Source of the DNA: Dongia deserti
Lineage (GTDB): Bacteria > Pseudomonadota > Alphaproteobacteria > Dongiales > Dongiaceae
Length of the DNA stretch: 64,000 nucleotides
Assembly (NCBI RefSeq): GCF_003574735.1
Contig: NZ_QORW01000001.1
Span: 62,001-126,000, forward strand
Direction: 5' to 3'
The stretch's first letter is position 1. Each line of letters starts with the position of its first letter. The notes under the pieces are model-generated. The model was given only the letters and a program-made list of their open reading frames with translations. It was not told where the DNA came from and searched no databases. The translations under genes and the position numbers were made by a program. Below, one piece after another: positions 5,587 through 21,906 of this stretch.

Positions 5587-6867
5587 TCAGGCCTTCTCCA
5601 CCCCGCACCATTCGGCGATGAACAGCGCGATGGTCGCAGTCACGCGCTTAACGGAGGGGAGGTATACGCGCTCGTCGAAGCCGTGATAATTCTCGGCCCT
5701 AGGCCCATAGACGAGCGCCGGGCAATCATCGTAGAGCATGAACACGCGGCCATCCACGTACGCCTGCGCGATGCGCGCTTCCACCTTGGCACCGAAGCTC
5801 TTGGCATGTGCGCCGGCCAGCACGCGCTCGGCCTCCGTCCCTTCGCTCAGCACATAGCCCTCAGCGAAGAAGCCATTGTATTCGATGCGCGGCGGCATGT
5901 TGCTGAGGAAGGGGTCGTTGCGCACTGCCTTGGCGATGCAGGCTTCGATCTCGTTCGCGGCATCGCGCGCGGCGACACCGGGATAGAAGGAGATTCGGCA
6001 GTCGAAGCTGCACCAGGCCGGCACCGAGGACGCCCAGTCGCCGCCTTCGATCTTGCCGATGTTGAGATTGACCGGATGCGGCAGGTCCTTGAAGTGCGGA
6101 TGGTCCACGCGCCGCGCGTTCCATTCTTCTTCCAGCCCATGCAGCGCCTGGATCAGGCGATAGCTGGCCTCGATCGCATTGGCGCCGCTGCCCGCAACCG
6201 AGGCATGCACGGGCAGGCCGCGCACGTGCACGCGGAACCAGATCACGCCCATGTTGGCGCGCGTCAGGCAATCGCCGCCGGGCTCCGGGATGATCGCGGC
6301 CTCGGCGCGATAGCCGCGCAGCAGGCAGGCCAAGGCACCGTTGCCGGTGCATTCCTCTTCGGTCACCGACTGCACATAGACCGGCGCTGCGGGCTGCAGC
6401 CCGAGGCGTTTCAAAGCATCGAGCGCGGCGATGTTGGCGACGAGACCCGCCTTCATATCGCCGGCGCCGCGGCCGTACAGCCAGTCGCCTTCGATCGCCG
6501 GCTCGAACGGTGGGCGCTCCCACATATCGAGCGGGCCCAGCGGCACGACATCGACGTGGCCGTTGAGGATCAGCGACTTGCCCTTGGCATCGGTCGGCCG
6601 ATGCGTGCCGACGACATTGAAGGCGTTGCTGTAATCGACCGCAACCGGAGAGAAGCCGGGGTGGTGCTTGATCGCCTCGACATCGATCGCCCAGCGATCC
6701 ATGGTGAGCCCGCGGCGCCCCATTTCGCCGTAGAGGAAGTCCTGCGCGGTATGCTCCTGGCCGCGCAGAGAGGGATAGCGCACCAGATCCTGCGTCAACT
6801 TCACTTGATCGGTGAAGCCGGCATCTACTGCGGCGATGATGTCGTCGGCGAGCTTGGTATCCAGCAT
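5587..6867 (-). CDS. M20 family metallopeptidase (ArgE/DapE-like deacylase)
   Basis: The 426-residue zinc hydrolase should cleave an amide bond of a small substrate such as an N-acyl amino acid. Di-metal site residues are visible: His104 in NGHVDVVPL, bridging Asp137 in GRGAGDMKAG, catalytic Glu171 in VTEEECTGNGA, Glu195 in IPEPGGD, and the late His in GPRAENYHGFDE. The dimerisation lid lies between, at about residues 205-320. The ATG at 6867 is chosen because MLDTKLADD starts the conserved region and lies 2 nt past the upstream pip stop codon. It is the last gene of a four-gene operon. The exact substrate cannot be read from sequence; acetylornithine deacetylase is not favoured because argJ recycles acetyl groups nearby. 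Confidence 0.88.
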   Translation of the reverse strand: MLDTKLADDIIAAVDAGFTDQVKLTQDLVRYPSLRGQEHTAQDFLYGEMGRRGLTMDRWAIDVEAIKHHPGFSPVAVDYSNAFNVVGTHRPTDAKGKSLILNGHVDVVPLGPLDMWERPPFEPAIEGDWLYGRGAGDMKAGLVANIAALDALKRLGLQPAAPVYVQSVTEEECTGNGALACLLRGYRAEAAIIPEPGGDCLTRANMGVIWFRVHVRGLPVHASVAGSGANAIEASYRLIQALHGLEEEWNARRVDHPHFKDLPHPVNLNIGKIEGGDWASSVPAWCSFDCRISFYPGVAARDAANEIEACIAKAVRNDPFLSNMPPRIEYNGFFAEGYVLSEGTEAERVLAGAHAKSFGAKVEARIAQAYVDGRVFMLYDDCPALVYGPRAENYHGFDERVYLPSVKRVTATIALFIAEWCGVEKA

Positions 6868-6869
6868 GG

Positions 6870-8598
<1,729 letters not shown>

Positions 8599-16758: not shown

Positions 16759-16871
16759 AACAACCTCCCTGGCCCCGCCGAGGGGCGGGTATTCCGAATA
16801 TTCATAGAGCGTGAACGCTTTCTAACGTAATATGTTCTGGGTTTCACCACTGACTTACACCGATTTTGATC

Positions 16872-17276
16872 ATGAAGCGCTATTGGGTGATCGGCGGCAT
16901 CTATGCCGACACCAAATTCGACCGCATGCAGGACGGCGGTCCGGAGCAGAGATTCGGTCCCTTCGGGACCTATGAAGAGGCGAAGGCCGAATGGCAACGC
17001 CGCGCGTGGAGCACGGTCGACAACGCGAACGCGCGCTACCGCATCGAGGAGGAATCGGGCGACACGTGGTACTGGGTGGTCGGCGGCCCCTATGCCGACA
17101 CCCGGTTCAAGGAGCCCGCCGACGGTGGTGGCGAAGAATGGCATGGCCCGTTTAAATCCTATGAAGACGCCAAGATCGAATGGTCGCGCCTGGCCTGGTC
17201 CACGGTGGACGACGCCATGTGCCGCTATCGCATCGAAAAGCTCGCCTATGGGGAGCGGCCGCGCAAGGCGTCGTAG
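16872..17276 (+). CDS. Tandem DUF4170 protein
   Basis: The 134-residue protein is two copies of the small alphaproteobacterial DUF4170 domain. Copy 1 runs from about residue 2 to 60 (YWVIGGIYADTKF to RYRIE) and copy 2 from about 66 to 124 (YWVVGGPYADTRF to RYRIE). By hand alignment, 36 of 59 positions are identical, including AWSTVD and GPF. Single-domain versions are the usual form; this is an internal duplication. No function is known. The ATG at 16872 is chosen over the TTG two codons earlier. Confidence 0.85.
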   Translation: MKRYWVIGGIYADTKFDRMQDGGPEQRFGPFGTYEEAKAEWQRRAWSTVDNANARYRIEEESGDTWYWVVGGPYADTRFKEPADGGGEEWHGPFKSYEDAKIEWSRLAWSTVDDAMCRYRIEKLAYGERPRKAS

Positions 17277-17626: not shown

Positions 17627-17932
17627 CTATTCTTCCGGCTCGGTCGTGAACATCAGCGGGTAGCCCTTGGCGCGGGCAGCCTCGGTCGCGCGCGTGGCCT
17701 TGGTTTCGGCGACGTCCCGTGTGAAGACCGCCACGACACAGGCGCCTTTCTTGTGCGCCGTGATCATCACGTTGTAGGCGTGGCTCTCGTTCATGTGAAA
17801 CTCGGCCTTGAGGACCATCACGACGAACTCGCGCGGCGTGTAGTCGTCATTGAGCAGAATGACCTTGTGGAGCCGCGGCCGCTCGACCTTCGGCTTGGTC
17901 TTGGTGCGTGGGACGATGACAGTGTCGCTCAT
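17627..17932 (-). CDS. clpS: ATP-dependent Clp protease adaptor ClpS (ClpS2-type)
   Basis: The 101-residue adaptor brings N-degron proteins to ClpAP. The core HKVILLNDDYTPREFVVMVL contains the NDDYT segment for the N-end pocket, followed by AHKKGACVVAVFTRDVAETKA and the end PLMFTTEPEE typical of alphaproteobacterial ClpS2 paralogues. The ATG at 17932 (MSDTVIVPRTK) is the family start; the frame continues to 18115 but that part has no homology I recognise. ClpA is not in the window, unlike loci where clpS and clpA are adjacent. Confidence 0.93.
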   Translation of the reverse strand: MSDTVIVPRTKTKPKVERPRLHKVILLNDDYTPREFVVMVLKAEFHMNESHAYNVMITAHKKGACVVAVFTRDVAETKATRATEAARAKGYPLMFTTEPEE

Positions 17933-18135
17933 CGGAGGAAATGCTCCGAATGACATGGAACGTGCCGGTTCCTGCGCTAACGCCTCAAGGGTAAGTCCGT
18001 TCCGTGGCAAAGTCACGGCCCTCGCCCACTGTATGGCAGACCAACCGGACCTGGTCCGACGGATGACCATGACAAACAAGGAAGGGGGAGGAACCGGTGC
18101 GACACCCACGCGCATGCATTAACCATCGATAGCCA

Positions 18136-18162
18136 TTGACCTCGCTCTTTCCTTTCTATAAT
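18136..18162 (+). promoter_or_regulatory. Candidate promoter of the GbsR operon
   Basis: TTGACC (18136-18141) and a perfect TATAAT (18157-18162) are separated by 15 nt, shorter than the usual 17 but with a consensus -10. Transcription would start near 18169, inside the palindrome described next, 40-50 nt before the regulator's start codon. Confidence 0.55.
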
Positions 18163-18180
18163 TTCTGTCATGACAGAAAT
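18161..18180. promoter_or_regulatory. Perfect 20-bp palindrome, probable operator
   Basis: ATTTCTGTCATGACAGAAAT is an exact 20-bp palindrome. It overlaps the last two bases of the -10 box and spans the predicted start site of the GbsR/MarR operon. Winged-helix regulators of this family bind such dyads as dimers, and the position would block RNA polymerase, so autorepression by the downstream regulator is the natural inference. Confidence 0.7.
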
Positions 18181-18212
18181 AACTGAATACACCAGCATCG
18201 CTGGAGGCCGTG

Positions 18213-18749
18213 ATGAAGCTGAGCCCGGTGATGGAGCGCTACATCCTCCATTGGGGCGAGATGGGCGCGCGATGGGGGATCAACCGGTCCATCGCCCAGA
18301 TCCACGCCCTGCTGTTCCTGTCGCCCCGACCGCTGACCGCCGAGGAGATCGCAGACACGCTCACCATCGCGCGCTCGAACGTCTCCACCAGCCTCAAGGA
18401 ATTGCAGTCCTTCAATCTCATCTCCGTCACCCATGTACTGGGCGACCGGCGCGATCACTTCGAGGCGGAGAAGGATGTGTGGCAGATCGCCTTCCACATC
18501 ATCGAGGCGCGCAAGCGGCGCGAGATCGACCCCACCCTCACCATGCTGCGGCAGTGCCTGATCGATGCACGCTCAGAGAGCGGCGAGGATCCGCAGGTGG
18601 TGGAGCGGCTCGAGAGCATGGTCGATTTCGTGCAGGCCTCCACCACCTGGTACGAGGAGGTGCGCCGCCTGCCGCAGCCCATCCTGGTGAAGCTGTTGAA
18701 GCTGGGCGCCAAGGTCGCGCGCCTCATTCCCTCCCGCACACAGGTGTAA
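18213..18749 (+). CDS. GbsR/MarR family transcriptional regulator
   Basis: The 178-residue protein has a MarR-like winged helix: IHALLFLSPRPLTAEEIADTL followed by the recognition segment ARSNVSTSLKELQSFNLI and the wing VLGDRRDHFEAEKDVW, as in GbsR-type regulators. The C-terminal half is helical and should mediate dimerisation. GTG at 18210 or ATG at 18213 is the start; GGAGG lies just upstream. Its stop is 2 nt before the next gene, so regulator, SDR fusion and DUF4166 gene form one operon, probably controlled through the palindrome over its promoter. Confidence 0.88.
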   Translation: MKLSPVMERYILHWGEMGARWGINRSIAQIHALLFLSPRPLTAEEIADTLTIARSNVSTSLKELQSFNLISVTHVLGDRRDHFEAEKDVWQIAFHIIEARKRREIDPTLTMLRQCLIDARSESGEDPQVVERLESMVDFVQASTTWYEEVRRLPQPILVKLLKLGAKVARLIPSRTQV

Positions 18750-18751
18750 TC

Positions 18752-20248
18752 ATGCCCGTCGCGTATTGGCTGCTCGCTGCGCAAGGGCTCTTGGGCGGCA
18801 TCGACAACATCTGGAATCACGAATGGCGCGCCAAGCTGCCCTCGAGCCCCAGCGCGCGGCGCGAGCTGCAATTGCATGCGGCGCGCGGCCTGATCTACGG
18901 GCCGGTGTTCCTCGCCTTCGCCTGGGCGGAGTTGCGCGGCCTGTTCGCGGTGGCGCTCCTCACCATTCTGGCGATCGAGCTCGTCATCACGCTGGCGGAC
19001 TTCGTGGAAGAGGATCGCTCGCGCGCCTTGAGCCCGCAGGAGCGGATCCTGCACGGGCTGCTGACCCTGAACTATGGCGCGTTCCTGGCGCTTATCCTGC
19101 CTGACTTGCTGACGCACGCGACCACGGAAAGCGCGATCATCCCCGCCGATCACGGCTGGATGTCGTGGCTGCTGACCCTCTATGCCGTCGGCTCGAGCGG
19201 GTTCGGCCTGCGCGAAGCGATTGCGGCGCACGGGCTGAGGCCGGTTGTGCAGCGGCCAGCGATCCAGGTTCGCCCGAACCTGCAGCCACAGAGCATCCTG
19301 GTGACTGGCGGTACCGGCTTCATCGGCACGGCCCTGGTGCGGCGGCTGATCGCGCGCGGCGACAAGGTCTACGTGATCGCGCGCTCACCAGCCAAGGCCG
19401 TGCGGCTGTTCGGCAACCAGGCGCTGATCGCGCCCTCGCTGCAGGCCTTGCCGGAGACGGTGAAGATCGACGCCGTCGTGAACCTCGCCGGTGCGCCAGT
19501 GTTCGGCCGGCCCTGGACCGATGCACGCAAGGTGGCGCTCGTGCGCAGCCGCGTCGACACCACCCGCGCGCTGGTGGACTGGATCGCGGACCACGCCGTG
19601 AAGCCGCGGGTGCTGGTGAGTGCGTCGGCAATCGGCTGGTATGGCGCGGATCGCGGCGATCAGCCTTTGACCGAGAATGCGCGCAGCGGCAGCGACTTCC
19701 CCGCCATGCTGTGCGGCGCCTGGGAGAAGGGGGCCGAACGCGCCAAAGGCATAGTGCCGCGCGTTTGCCGGCTGCGCATCGGGCTGGTGCTTGGGCGCGA
19801 CGGCGGCATGCTGCGGCCGATGATGCGCGCCTTCAGGCTCGGTCTTGGCGGACGCGTCGGCAACGGCCGGCAATGGATGTCGTGGATCCATCTCGAGGAC
19901 CTGCTGGCCCTCATCATCCGTGCCATCGACGATCCGACCTTCCAAGGCGCGATCAATGCCGTCGCGCCGCACCCGGTCACCAACGCGGCATTCACCCGCG
20001 CGCTCGCGGCCAGCGTGCACCGACCGGCCATCCTGCACGCGCCCGCATTCGTCCTGCGCCTGATGCTGGGCGAGATGGCGACGCTGCTGCTGGATGGGCA
20101 GCGCGCATTGCCGGAGCGCGCGGATCAGCTCGGGTTCCAGTTCCGCTATCGCAGGCTGCCCGCCGCGCTGGCGGAGATCGTCGCGCGCAAATCGGACAAG
20201 GGGGCACAGCATGACCATCCTGTCGGACTTCGCACTGCCGCGCGATAA
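18752..20248 (+). CDS. Fusion of an N-terminal membrane domain with a TIGR01777-type SDR epimerase
   Basis: The 498-residue protein has two parts. Residues 1 to about 165 are hydrophobic with three or four predicted membrane helices and conserved-looking polar motifs GGIDNIWNHEW and LADFVEEDRSR; I do not recognise this domain. From about 180 it is an atypical SDR of the YfcH/SDR39U1 group: SILVTGGTGFIGTALVRRLI (NAD(P)-binding), VVNLAGAPVFGRPW, SASAIGWYGADRGDQPL (catalytic Tyr region) and MSWIHLEDLLALI. Stand-alone members are about 300 residues. The last 38 nt overlap the DUF4166 gene. The substrate is unknown; the membrane anchor hints at a lipid or quinone. Confidence 0.85.
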   Translation: MPVAYWLLAAQGLLGGIDNIWNHEWRAKLPSSPSARRELQLHAARGLIYGPVFLAFAWAELRGLFAVALLTILAIELVITLADFVEEDRSRALSPQERILHGLLTLNYGAFLALILPDLLTHATTESAIIPADHGWMSWLLTLYAVGSSGFGLREAIAAHGLRPVVQRPAIQVRPNLQPQSILVTGGTGFIGTALVRRLIARGDKVYVIARSPAKAVRLFGNQALIAPSLQALPETVKIDAVVNLAGAPVFGRPWTDARKVALVRSRVDTTRALVDWIADHAVKPRVLVSASAIGWYGADRGDQPLTENARSGSDFPAMLCGAWEKGAERAKGIVPRVCRLRIGLVLGRDGGMLRPMMRAFRLGLGGRVGNGRQWMSWIHLEDLLALIIRAIDDPTFQGAINAVAPHPVTNAAFTRALAASVHRPAILHAPAFVLRLMLGEMATLLLDGQRALPERADQLGFQFRYRRLPAALAEIVARKSDKGAQHDHPVGLRTAAR

Positions 20249-20801
20249 GCGCCTGCTCAAAGGGTTGATGGGGCGCAGCTTCGATCGCCTCGCCAGCGCG
20301 GTGCGCGATGTCCATGGCACCGAGCAGATCGGCTATTGGCGCGGCCTGTGCCAAGTGAAGCGCGGGCGCTCGCTGCTCTCGAAGCTGGTCGGCTGGTGGT
20401 TCCAATTCCCGCCGGCGGGCTTCTATCCGCGCATGTCGGTGACGGTGCTGCGCGACCGGGTGGGCGAGGTGTGGATGCGCGCCTTCGGCAGCCACGACAT
20501 CAAGACGCGCCTGCTGCCGACCGCGCCCGGCGCGCGAATCGTGCGCGAGTGTTTCGGGCTGGTCGAGTTCGACCTCAAGACCGGAATCCAGGACGGCGCC
20601 TTGACACTCGATGTGGTGGGCATGCGCACGCTGGGCATCCCGACACCACGCTTCCTGTGGCCGCACCTCACCGCCGAGGAAGCGAACGAGGGAGGCTGGT
20701 TCCGCTTCGACATCAAGATCGACCTGCCCGGACGCGTGCCGCTGATCCACTATCTCGGCTGGCTGGAAGGCAGTGCGGGCAAGGCGGAACGCGCGATCTA
20801 G
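20211..20801 (+). CDS. DUF4166 domain protein
   Basis: The 196-residue product matches DUF4166, a domain often encoded beside or fused to saccharopine-dehydrogenase-like or SDR enzymes. It has a basic N-terminal part (residues 1-60), WFQFPPAGFYPRMSVTV, WMRAFGSHDIKTRLL, then ECFGLVEFDLKT and the terminal RFDIKIDLPGRVPLIHYLGWL. No signal peptide or membrane helix is seen. It overlaps the SDR fusion gene by 38 nt, so the two are translationally linked and may act in one reaction. Confidence 0.8.
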   Translation: MTILSDFALPRDKRLLKGLMGRSFDRLASAVRDVHGTEQIGYWRGLCQVKRGRSLLSKLVGWWFQFPPAGFYPRMSVTVLRDRVGEVWMRAFGSHDIKTRLLPTAPGARIVRECFGLVEFDLKTGIQDGALTLDVVGMRTLGIPTPRFLWPHLTAEEANEGGWFRFDIKIDLPGRVPLIHYLGWLEGSAGKAERAI

Positions 20802-20913: not shown

Positions 20914-21906
20914 TCAATCTGCCCTGCGTTCACCCAATACGGTCACGGCGGTCTTGCGGCCCTCGCCATCGGCCTGCATCGCGAACCCCATATGGCTCGC
21001 GGCGCTTTGCAGCACGTATGGCCTGTCGTTCGGATTGTTCGTCCACTGGTCGGCAAAATAGCGGATGTCCGCTGCAGTCGGCTGTGTTCCGCAGCCGCCG
21101 CAGGCCGCGGCCATGACCTGCAGTCGGCGCCAGCTCAGTCCGGTGTCCCCCGGCAGAAGCGCAAACAGGTCGTCCGGCCGATCGATCAAGTGATCACCGG
21201 TGCCGTTCTCCGGAATGAGTTTCTTCGCCACCTCGCTCAAGACCGCGCTGTGCTCAAGCGGATCGAGCCCCTCGCGTTCTCTTGCGCGATTGATCGCCTG
21301 CACCGCCCTTTGCATCTGCTCGTCGGTGGACAGCGCGACCGGCTCCTCGCCGTCGGCAAGGTCCAGCGGCATGCCCGGCCCGGCGAAGGTCTGCACCGCG
21401 TAGACCCTGCCGTCCTTGCCGGCGACTCCGAAGCCGAAGTTCTGCACCCCTCTCATCAGGATATTCTCGCGGTGTCCCGGACTTTTCATCCAGCCTTCGT
21501 GAAACCGGGCGACCCGGTCCAGCGTAGCTGGCATCTTGCACTCCTTGCAGGTGGCGATGTTCTCGGCGACCCGCTTCCAGCGGCTACCGCCTTGGTCACG
21601 ATAGCGGTCCTCCACGGTCTCGCCGTCGGGCGAAACGTGCGAGTAGTAGCCGCGGGCGAGCATATCCTCGGCGTGCGCCTGCGCCGCCTTGTCGAGGCGT
21701 TCGCCGGATTGCAGTGGTTCAAGTCCATGTTGCTTGCGCGCATCGTTCACCAGCGACAGAGCCCGATGCCGCATCTCCTCAAGCGCCGGAGCGGGGGCCG
21801 CAGACTGCTCAGAGGATTGCTCACCCGGCTGGACCGAGTCTTGCGCGAGGGTCGCTGCGGATATCGCAAGTACGCTCGCAATTCCAGCAATCGCGGTTCG
21901 CAGCAT
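20914..21906 (-). CDS. Secreted CAP-domain (SCP/PR1) protein with a second degenerate CAP-like repeat
   Basis: The 330-residue protein has a signal peptide (residues 1-21, ending ATLAQ) and a Gln/Ser/Glu linker. A CAP domain at about 45-175 shows LVNDARKQHGLEPL, ARGYYSHVSPDGETVEDRY, VAENIATC and WMKSPGHRENIL. A second, weaker CAP-like unit begins near 205 (QAINRAREREGLDPLEHS) and lacks the His/Glu motifs. Cysteines in TCKECKM and CGGCG may form disulfides. Function is unknown; extracellular or periplasmic. No operon partner. Confidence 0.85.
   Translation of the reverse strand: MLRTAIAGIASVLAISAATLAQDSVQPGEQSSEQSAAPAPALEEMRHRALSLVNDARKQHGLEPLQSGERLDKAAQAHAEDMLARGYYSHVSPDGETVEDRYRDQGGSRWKRVAENIATCKECKMPATLDRVARFHEGWMKSPGHRENILMRGVQNFGFGVAGKDGRVYAVQTFAGPGMPLDLADGEEPVALSTDEQMQRAVQAINRAREREGLDPLEHSAVLSEVAKKLIPENGTGDHLIDRPDDLFALLPGDTGLSWRRLQVMAAACGGCGTQPTAADIRYFADQWTNNPNDRPYVLQSAASHMGFAMQADGEGRKTAVTVLGERRAD

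Follow-up and report, generated by a model that had tools for sequence, protein, structure and literature searches.

The GbsR/MarR-type regulator, the membrane-domain–SDR fusion and the DUF4166 protein encoded side by side in the window—the 64,000-nucleotide stretch of Dongia deserti DNA analyzed here—belong to a real, conserved operon family and not to a chance cluster, as judged by sequence comparison. A regulated operon with a predicted operator of its own is supported by the recurrence of both motif and gene set in many alphaproteobacterial families and in some betaproteobacteria (Burkholderia, Cupriavidus), which bears out the self-contained GbsR-regulated unit proposed in the initial annotation. 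The best reading, with a probability of roughly 0.55, is that the regulator represses its own operon and thereby controls an enzyme that uses NAD(P)H to act on a membrane lipid or isoprenoid. Apparently, and provisionally, this operon family is undescribed: in the open-access literature searched there is no mention of DUF4166 and no pairing of these domains, and the TIGR01777 papers found there are unrelated. The earlier claim of novelty holds within this literature, and a survey of the GbsR family recognizes no groups besides osmostress, cytochrome bd, other-transporter and unknown (PMC6207618). Through this operon, DUF4166, a TIGR01777 subgroup and an unnamed membrane domain are placed in a clearly delimited gene set with a defined, conserved operator–regulator pair. 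Since the regulator appears to control its own operon only, it may offer a way to identify the inducer and, through it, the substrate.

Gene set, promoter and candidate operator

The gene set is flanked on its 5′ side by the divergent clpS (17627–18115) and on its 3′ side by a convergent CAP-domain gene (20914–21906). Coordinates and family profiles confirm the three same-strand genes initially annotated, including the 38 nt common to the fusion and DUF4166 genes (20211–20248; Table 1). The regulator likely starts at ATG 18213, because GGAGG at 18203 precedes it and the product MKLSP resembles the MKLTP of relatives. A 692-aa frame opening at 18170 inside the palindrome and running out of frame through the regulator into the fusion was rejected as a chance frame in GC-rich DNA; the close relative L002 does not hold it in frame with the SDR. 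Further upstream, at 16866–17276, a DUF4170 protein is tandemly duplicated.

Table 1. Features of the operon (window coordinates)
Feature	Coordinates	Strand	Remarks
-35-like element, TTGACC	18136–18141	+	sequence
Extended operator (candidate), outer half-sites TTTC (18153–18156) and GAAT (18185–18188)	18153–18188	.	
-10-like element, TATAAT	18157–18162	+	sequence; overlaps palindrome by 2 nt
Core operator (candidate), perfect 20-bp palindrome TTTCTGT-N4-ACAGAAA	18161–18180	.	conserved upstream of relatives
Regulator gene, GbsR/MarR-type, 178 aa	18213–18749	+	alternative start GTG 18210
Fusion gene, membrane domain::TIGR01777 SDR, 498 aa	18752–20248	+	
Membrane domain, family unrecognized, aa 1–165, approximately five TM helices	18752–19246	+	topology from charge distribution
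TIGR01777-type SDR domain with C-terminal DUF1731, aa 182–476	19295–20179	+	
DUF4166 gene, 196 aa, clade B type	20211–20801	+	

The perfect palindrome reported upstream of the three genes is present and reads ATTTCTGTCATGACAGAAAT. Neither the window nor the entire 6.13-Mb genome contains it more than once, and no other perfect palindrome of at least 16 bp is present in the window. Composition alone predicts 0.14 palindromes of 20 bp for the window and approximately 13 for the genome, so that length alone is weak evidence and the weight is carried by conservation. The outer half-sites lie about one helical turn to either side of the core, symmetric about its center; the downstream one is GAAT in the window and GAAA in most relatives. 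These columns, which lie beyond the search pattern, are conserved at symmetric positions (C in 22 and G in 21 of 23 operons). The overlap of the palindrome with a -10 box stands as annotated, but the promoter is weakly consensus: TTGACC and TATAAT are spaced by 15 nt, and a strict sigma-70 scan with a 16–18 nt spacer found no promoter here. TTGAC is located 25–28 nt 5′ of the TTTCTGT core in 18/23 related operons.

Conservation of the palindrome and affiliation of the regulator

Eighteen operons besides that of the window were located without use of the motif—via DUF4166, a genome-contig scan or the membrane domain—and all 18 carry TTTCTGT-N4-ACAGAAA at the regulator start with 0–1 mismatch; hence, the palindrome is found upstream of orthologous operons, where its absence would have spoken against an operator. 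The close relative L002 (PNKY01000001) features the same three genes, an identical 20-mer and a DUF4166 protein that is 84 percent identical. When DUF4166 was sought in 385 genomes of the class irrespective of the motif, every locus with a GbsR-type gene of the window's kind beside DUF4166 had the motif at the regulator start with 0–1 mismatch. DUF4166 loci lacking the regulator lack the motif too, except for L036, which has the motif and whose genome carries the regulator on a separate contig. An equally motif-independent search with the membrane domain yielded eight more operons, from a Bradyrhizobium-like genus (this label is a guess from sequence) and from replicons of Methylobacterium, Novosphingobium, Burkholderia and Cupriavidus; the motif is present in all of these whose sequence extends to the regulator. 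In 11/23 operons, a second copy lies 3′ of the regulator gene, ahead of the next gene. When 12 genomes or records were scanned, nearly all occurrences of the motif fell at this operon, against 0 for a reversed control. One genome (G341) bears two separate operons, GbsR with membrane-SDR and DUF4166 with a saccharopine-dehydrogenase-like gene, and the motif is found at both; another (G045) has membrane-SDR and DUF4166 with neither regulator nor motif. Viral contigs gave no match.

A regulator-profile scan of the 385 genomes, run independently of the motif, placed the window's group at 268 bits or more and its relatives at 198–260 bits. The exact motif occurs in 14/16 genomes of this group versus 9/369 others (Fisher p = 7e-18, kinship uncorrected). 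The nine were dismissed as chance matches, the reversed control also matching approximately five genomes. One of the two exceptions within the group (G001) carries TTTCAGT-N4-ACTGAAA, both at the regulator and at a saccharopine-dehydrogenase-like target. The membrane domain occurs in eight of the 385 genomes and is fused to TIGR01777 in 8/8, accompanied by DUF4166 in the genome in 8/8 and by the regulator group in 7/8. The suggested co-occurrence of regulator, fusion and DUF4166 is found: motif, membrane domain and DUF4166 all track one GbsR protein group. Among further GbsR-type genes, a close relative in L130 (G065) has no recognized palindrome and is followed by crotonase- and NUDIX-like genes, as read from the sequence; L034 holds a second, very divergent paralogue (5873–6613) between DUF4166 and a saccharopine-dehydrogenase-like gene; and in L089, the palindrome accompanies a GbsR gene that has a weak fatty-acid-desaturase-like gene downstream (approximately 5699–6475) and no DUF4166.

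In 12/23 operons, the central ATG of the palindrome is the in-frame regulator start, with the right arm coding for an MTE- start (L034, L035, L037–L039, L044, L109–L113 and L115). The palindrome might accordingly be a conserved element marking where transcription or translation begins, and not an operator. We consider this very improbable: an in-frame ATG is missing from this position in the remaining 11 operons, the second copies 3′ of the regulator gene lack such a start, and binding of a protein would agree with both the symmetry of the outer half-sites and the parallel with CydE. In the 12 operons with the MTE- start, the start codon falls together with the candidate operator and the probable start of transcription, and their mRNAs may be leaderless.

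As to family, the regulator matches MarR_2 (7e-8, 32.9 bits, above the cut-off of 27) and Mj223 (1ku9; E 4e-12). It thus exceeds the winged-helix cut-off and has an inverted repeat, its predicted operator, at its own operon—in line with the GbsR/MarR family. The closest studied relatives are CydE proteins; CydE of Alishewanella is a GbsR-type autorepressor of cydAB that is released by sulfate, and the core of its footprinted site is TTTCAGAAATTTCTGAAA (PMC6096048). Like CydE, the window regulator features a GbsR-type winged helix, lies in the same operon as its targets and has a palindromic TTTC..GAAA at its own promoter, with repression being a prediction here. This kinship, together with the recurrence of DCC1 thiol-disulfide proteins in related operons, raises the possibility of a CydE-like sensor whose operon serves a respiratory or a sulfur/oxidative stress response, with membrane-SDR and DCC1 handling quinones or disulfides. 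We regard it as rather doubtful. The CydE proteins form a clade of their own (100/100), and the group surrounding the window regulator is not recovered as a single clade. Lower-scoring GbsR relatives beside cydA (L139, L143) feature TTTCAGAAATTTCTGAAA, exact in L143, or a close variant of it, whereas the window carries TTTCTGTCATGACAGAAA—TTTCTGT-N4-ACAGAAA compared with TTTCAG-N6-CTGAAA. No cydAB genes adjoin the window regulator; its neighbors are clpS, membrane-SDR, DUF4166 and the CAP protein. That the sister CydE clade beside cydA has the published CydE site instead supports the palindrome as the probable operator of the regulator and shows that operator sequences diverge between the two groups within one family.

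The best NCBIfam match of the regulator is CudC (NF047500; 1e-14), and it shares the family fold with GbsR, OpcR, OpuAR and CudC of Bacillus and Staphylococcus. Its repeat has a 4-bp spacer, as does the inverted-repeat operator of B. subtilis GbsR; OpcR works by occluding the promoter (PMC7396694). A sensor of choline-like osmoprotectants, as in B. subtilis GbsR or CudC, with an operon remodeling membranes in osmotic stress, is nevertheless unlikely: the CudC score of 54.6 bits is far below the cut-off of 218, choline and Opu genes are absent, the operator sequence differs, and the GbsR survey infers other effectors outside the osmostress clade (PMC6207618).

Membrane-SDR fusion and modular gene content

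Residues 1–176 of the fusion match no Pfam or NCBIfam model, and a profile of the membrane domain finds no match in the PDB and only stray weak Pfam matches in single members. A relationship to DUF2269 was rejected, since profile comparison shows the two to be unrelated. Among 16 alpha- and betaproteobacterial sequences, the polar residues Q11, D18, H23, E24, E38, H42, R45, Y49, E76, T80, D83, E87, D88, R91, E97, R98 and H101 never change, and 14 of these—all except Q11, Y49 and T80—are Asp, Glu, His or Arg; the position before H23 is a second His in most relatives and Asn in the window. The invariant residues sit where predicted helices 1 and 3 end and helices 2 and 4 begin, therefore on one membrane face. 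Positive charges in the loops bearing them place this face, by the positive-inside rule, in the cytoplasm, so that polar cluster and SDR are both predicted at the cytoplasmic face.

The SDR half is a full-length TIGR01777 member (5e-100, 334.9 bits, cut-off 207; residues 182–473, model positions 1–292), with the solved relatives 3oh8 and 4b4o. It features a TGGTGFIG nucleotide-binding motif at aa 185, and NAD(P) binding is predicted; the YxxxK motif was not found in the SDR domain. In contrast to TIGR01777, YfcH, SDR39U1 and ThyD proteins, it carries the additional N-terminal five-helix membrane domain with its invariant polar cluster and scores below the ThyD cut-off. AlphaFold models from two sequences each have a mean pLDDT of 38 for the fusion and 37 for the DUF4166 protein and were set aside.

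The DUF4166 protein matches PF13761 over positions 1–184 (1e-16, 61.6 bits, cut-off 23). DUF4166 proteins split into clades A and B (support 100/99), and the window protein is in clade B alongside stand-alone and saccharopine-dehydrogenase-fused proteins. Like DUF4166 fused or adjacent to saccharopine-dehydrogenase-like proteins, it has an NAD(P) enzyme of the Rossmann type as its partner, in this case the membrane-SDR. Two further DUF4166 genes of the same genome (C3:37750–38223, L054; C6:136955–137407, L055) lack the palindrome, and one of them is fused to a saccharopine-dehydrogenase-like domain.

The three-gene neighborhood originally described recurs, although its content is modular and not fixed at three, and the DUF4166 protein of the window is not of the usual operon type but of a second one, to which the first is distantly related. 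The commonest order is regulator, DUF4166, membrane-SDR (L035, L041, L043, L109–L113). L039 has regulator, DUF4166 and a saccharopine-dehydrogenase-like gene, as does L034 with its second regulator in between; L040 has regulator, DUF4166-A, membrane-SDR-DCC1 and DUF4166-B. In Burkholderia and Cupriavidus, the order is regulator, SDR-DoxX_3, DUF2269, DCC1 and membrane-SDR, with DUF2269 assigned via 53 percent identity to the L060 protein, which itself matches in Pfam. A C-terminal DCC1 domain is present on three alphaproteobacterial fusions; redox partners of the relatives comprise DCC1, fused or adjacent, SDR-DoxX_3 and DUF2269. The window operon lacks DUF4166-A, the type usually following the regulator, and tree and gene order show its displacement by DUF4166-B in this lineage, in a presumed order of events. 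L040, with both types, is possibly an intermediate state; its B copy falls into a different subclade, and the B gene may therefore have been recruited more than once.

Elsewhere, ArsR-type small regulators lie beside clade-B DUF4166 (L048 6517–6843, L058 4928–5263), a second kind of DUF4166–regulator pairing. DCC1-like genes (PF04134) overlap or adjoin DUF4166 in loci without GbsR (L049 5367–6382, L061 4919–5919, L062 4913–5966).

Proposed mechanism and substrate

In the preferred reading of an autorepressed membrane enzyme, a regulator dimer would bind ATTTCTGT-N4-ACAGAAAT over the -10 box and the transcription start and block RNA polymerase, until a small ligand frees it from the DNA and the operon is expressed. 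The product would be a membrane-anchored NAD(P)-dependent enzyme with a cytoplasmic SDR domain, beside which the five-helix domain would hold its invariant Asp/Glu/His/Arg cluster. DUF4166 would assist the fusion on a hydrophobic substrate; in relatives, the DCC1 thiol-redox domain, SDR-DoxX, DUF2269 or a saccharopine-dehydrogenase-like protein may play the same role. In the window lineage, the usual DUF4166-A was presumably lost, with DUF4166-B now at the operon end.

The earlier proposal of a pathway on a membrane-linked substrate is plausible in view of the conserved membrane domain with its polar cluster and of the redox and membrane partners; the substrate itself is a suggestion. A membrane lipid or isoprenoid is most likely because of the membrane location and of single neighbors in two relatives: the desaturase-like gene of L089, which scores below its Pfam cut-off, and an MPAB/Lcp-type oxygenase gene in L110.

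More tentatively, residues 1–165 might constitute a new family of membrane metal-binding enzymes, a possibility to which we give limited credence. Two E-x3-H motifs (E38..H42, E97..H101) together with D18, H23, E24, D83, E87 and D88 would form the site at the cytoplasmic face, electrons would come from the fused SDR (in relatives, also from DCC1), and a membrane lipid or isoprenoid would be modified, with the GbsR-type regulator sensing that substrate and switching the operon on. Comparison with diiron-like metalloenzymes is consistent with this at the sequence level, as invariant Asp, Glu and His are located on several predicted helices at one face. The oxygenase gene of L110, encoding an MPAB/Lcp catalytic domain (7473–8351), overlaps the end of the membrane-SDR gene on the Novosphingobium plasmid pTHN.
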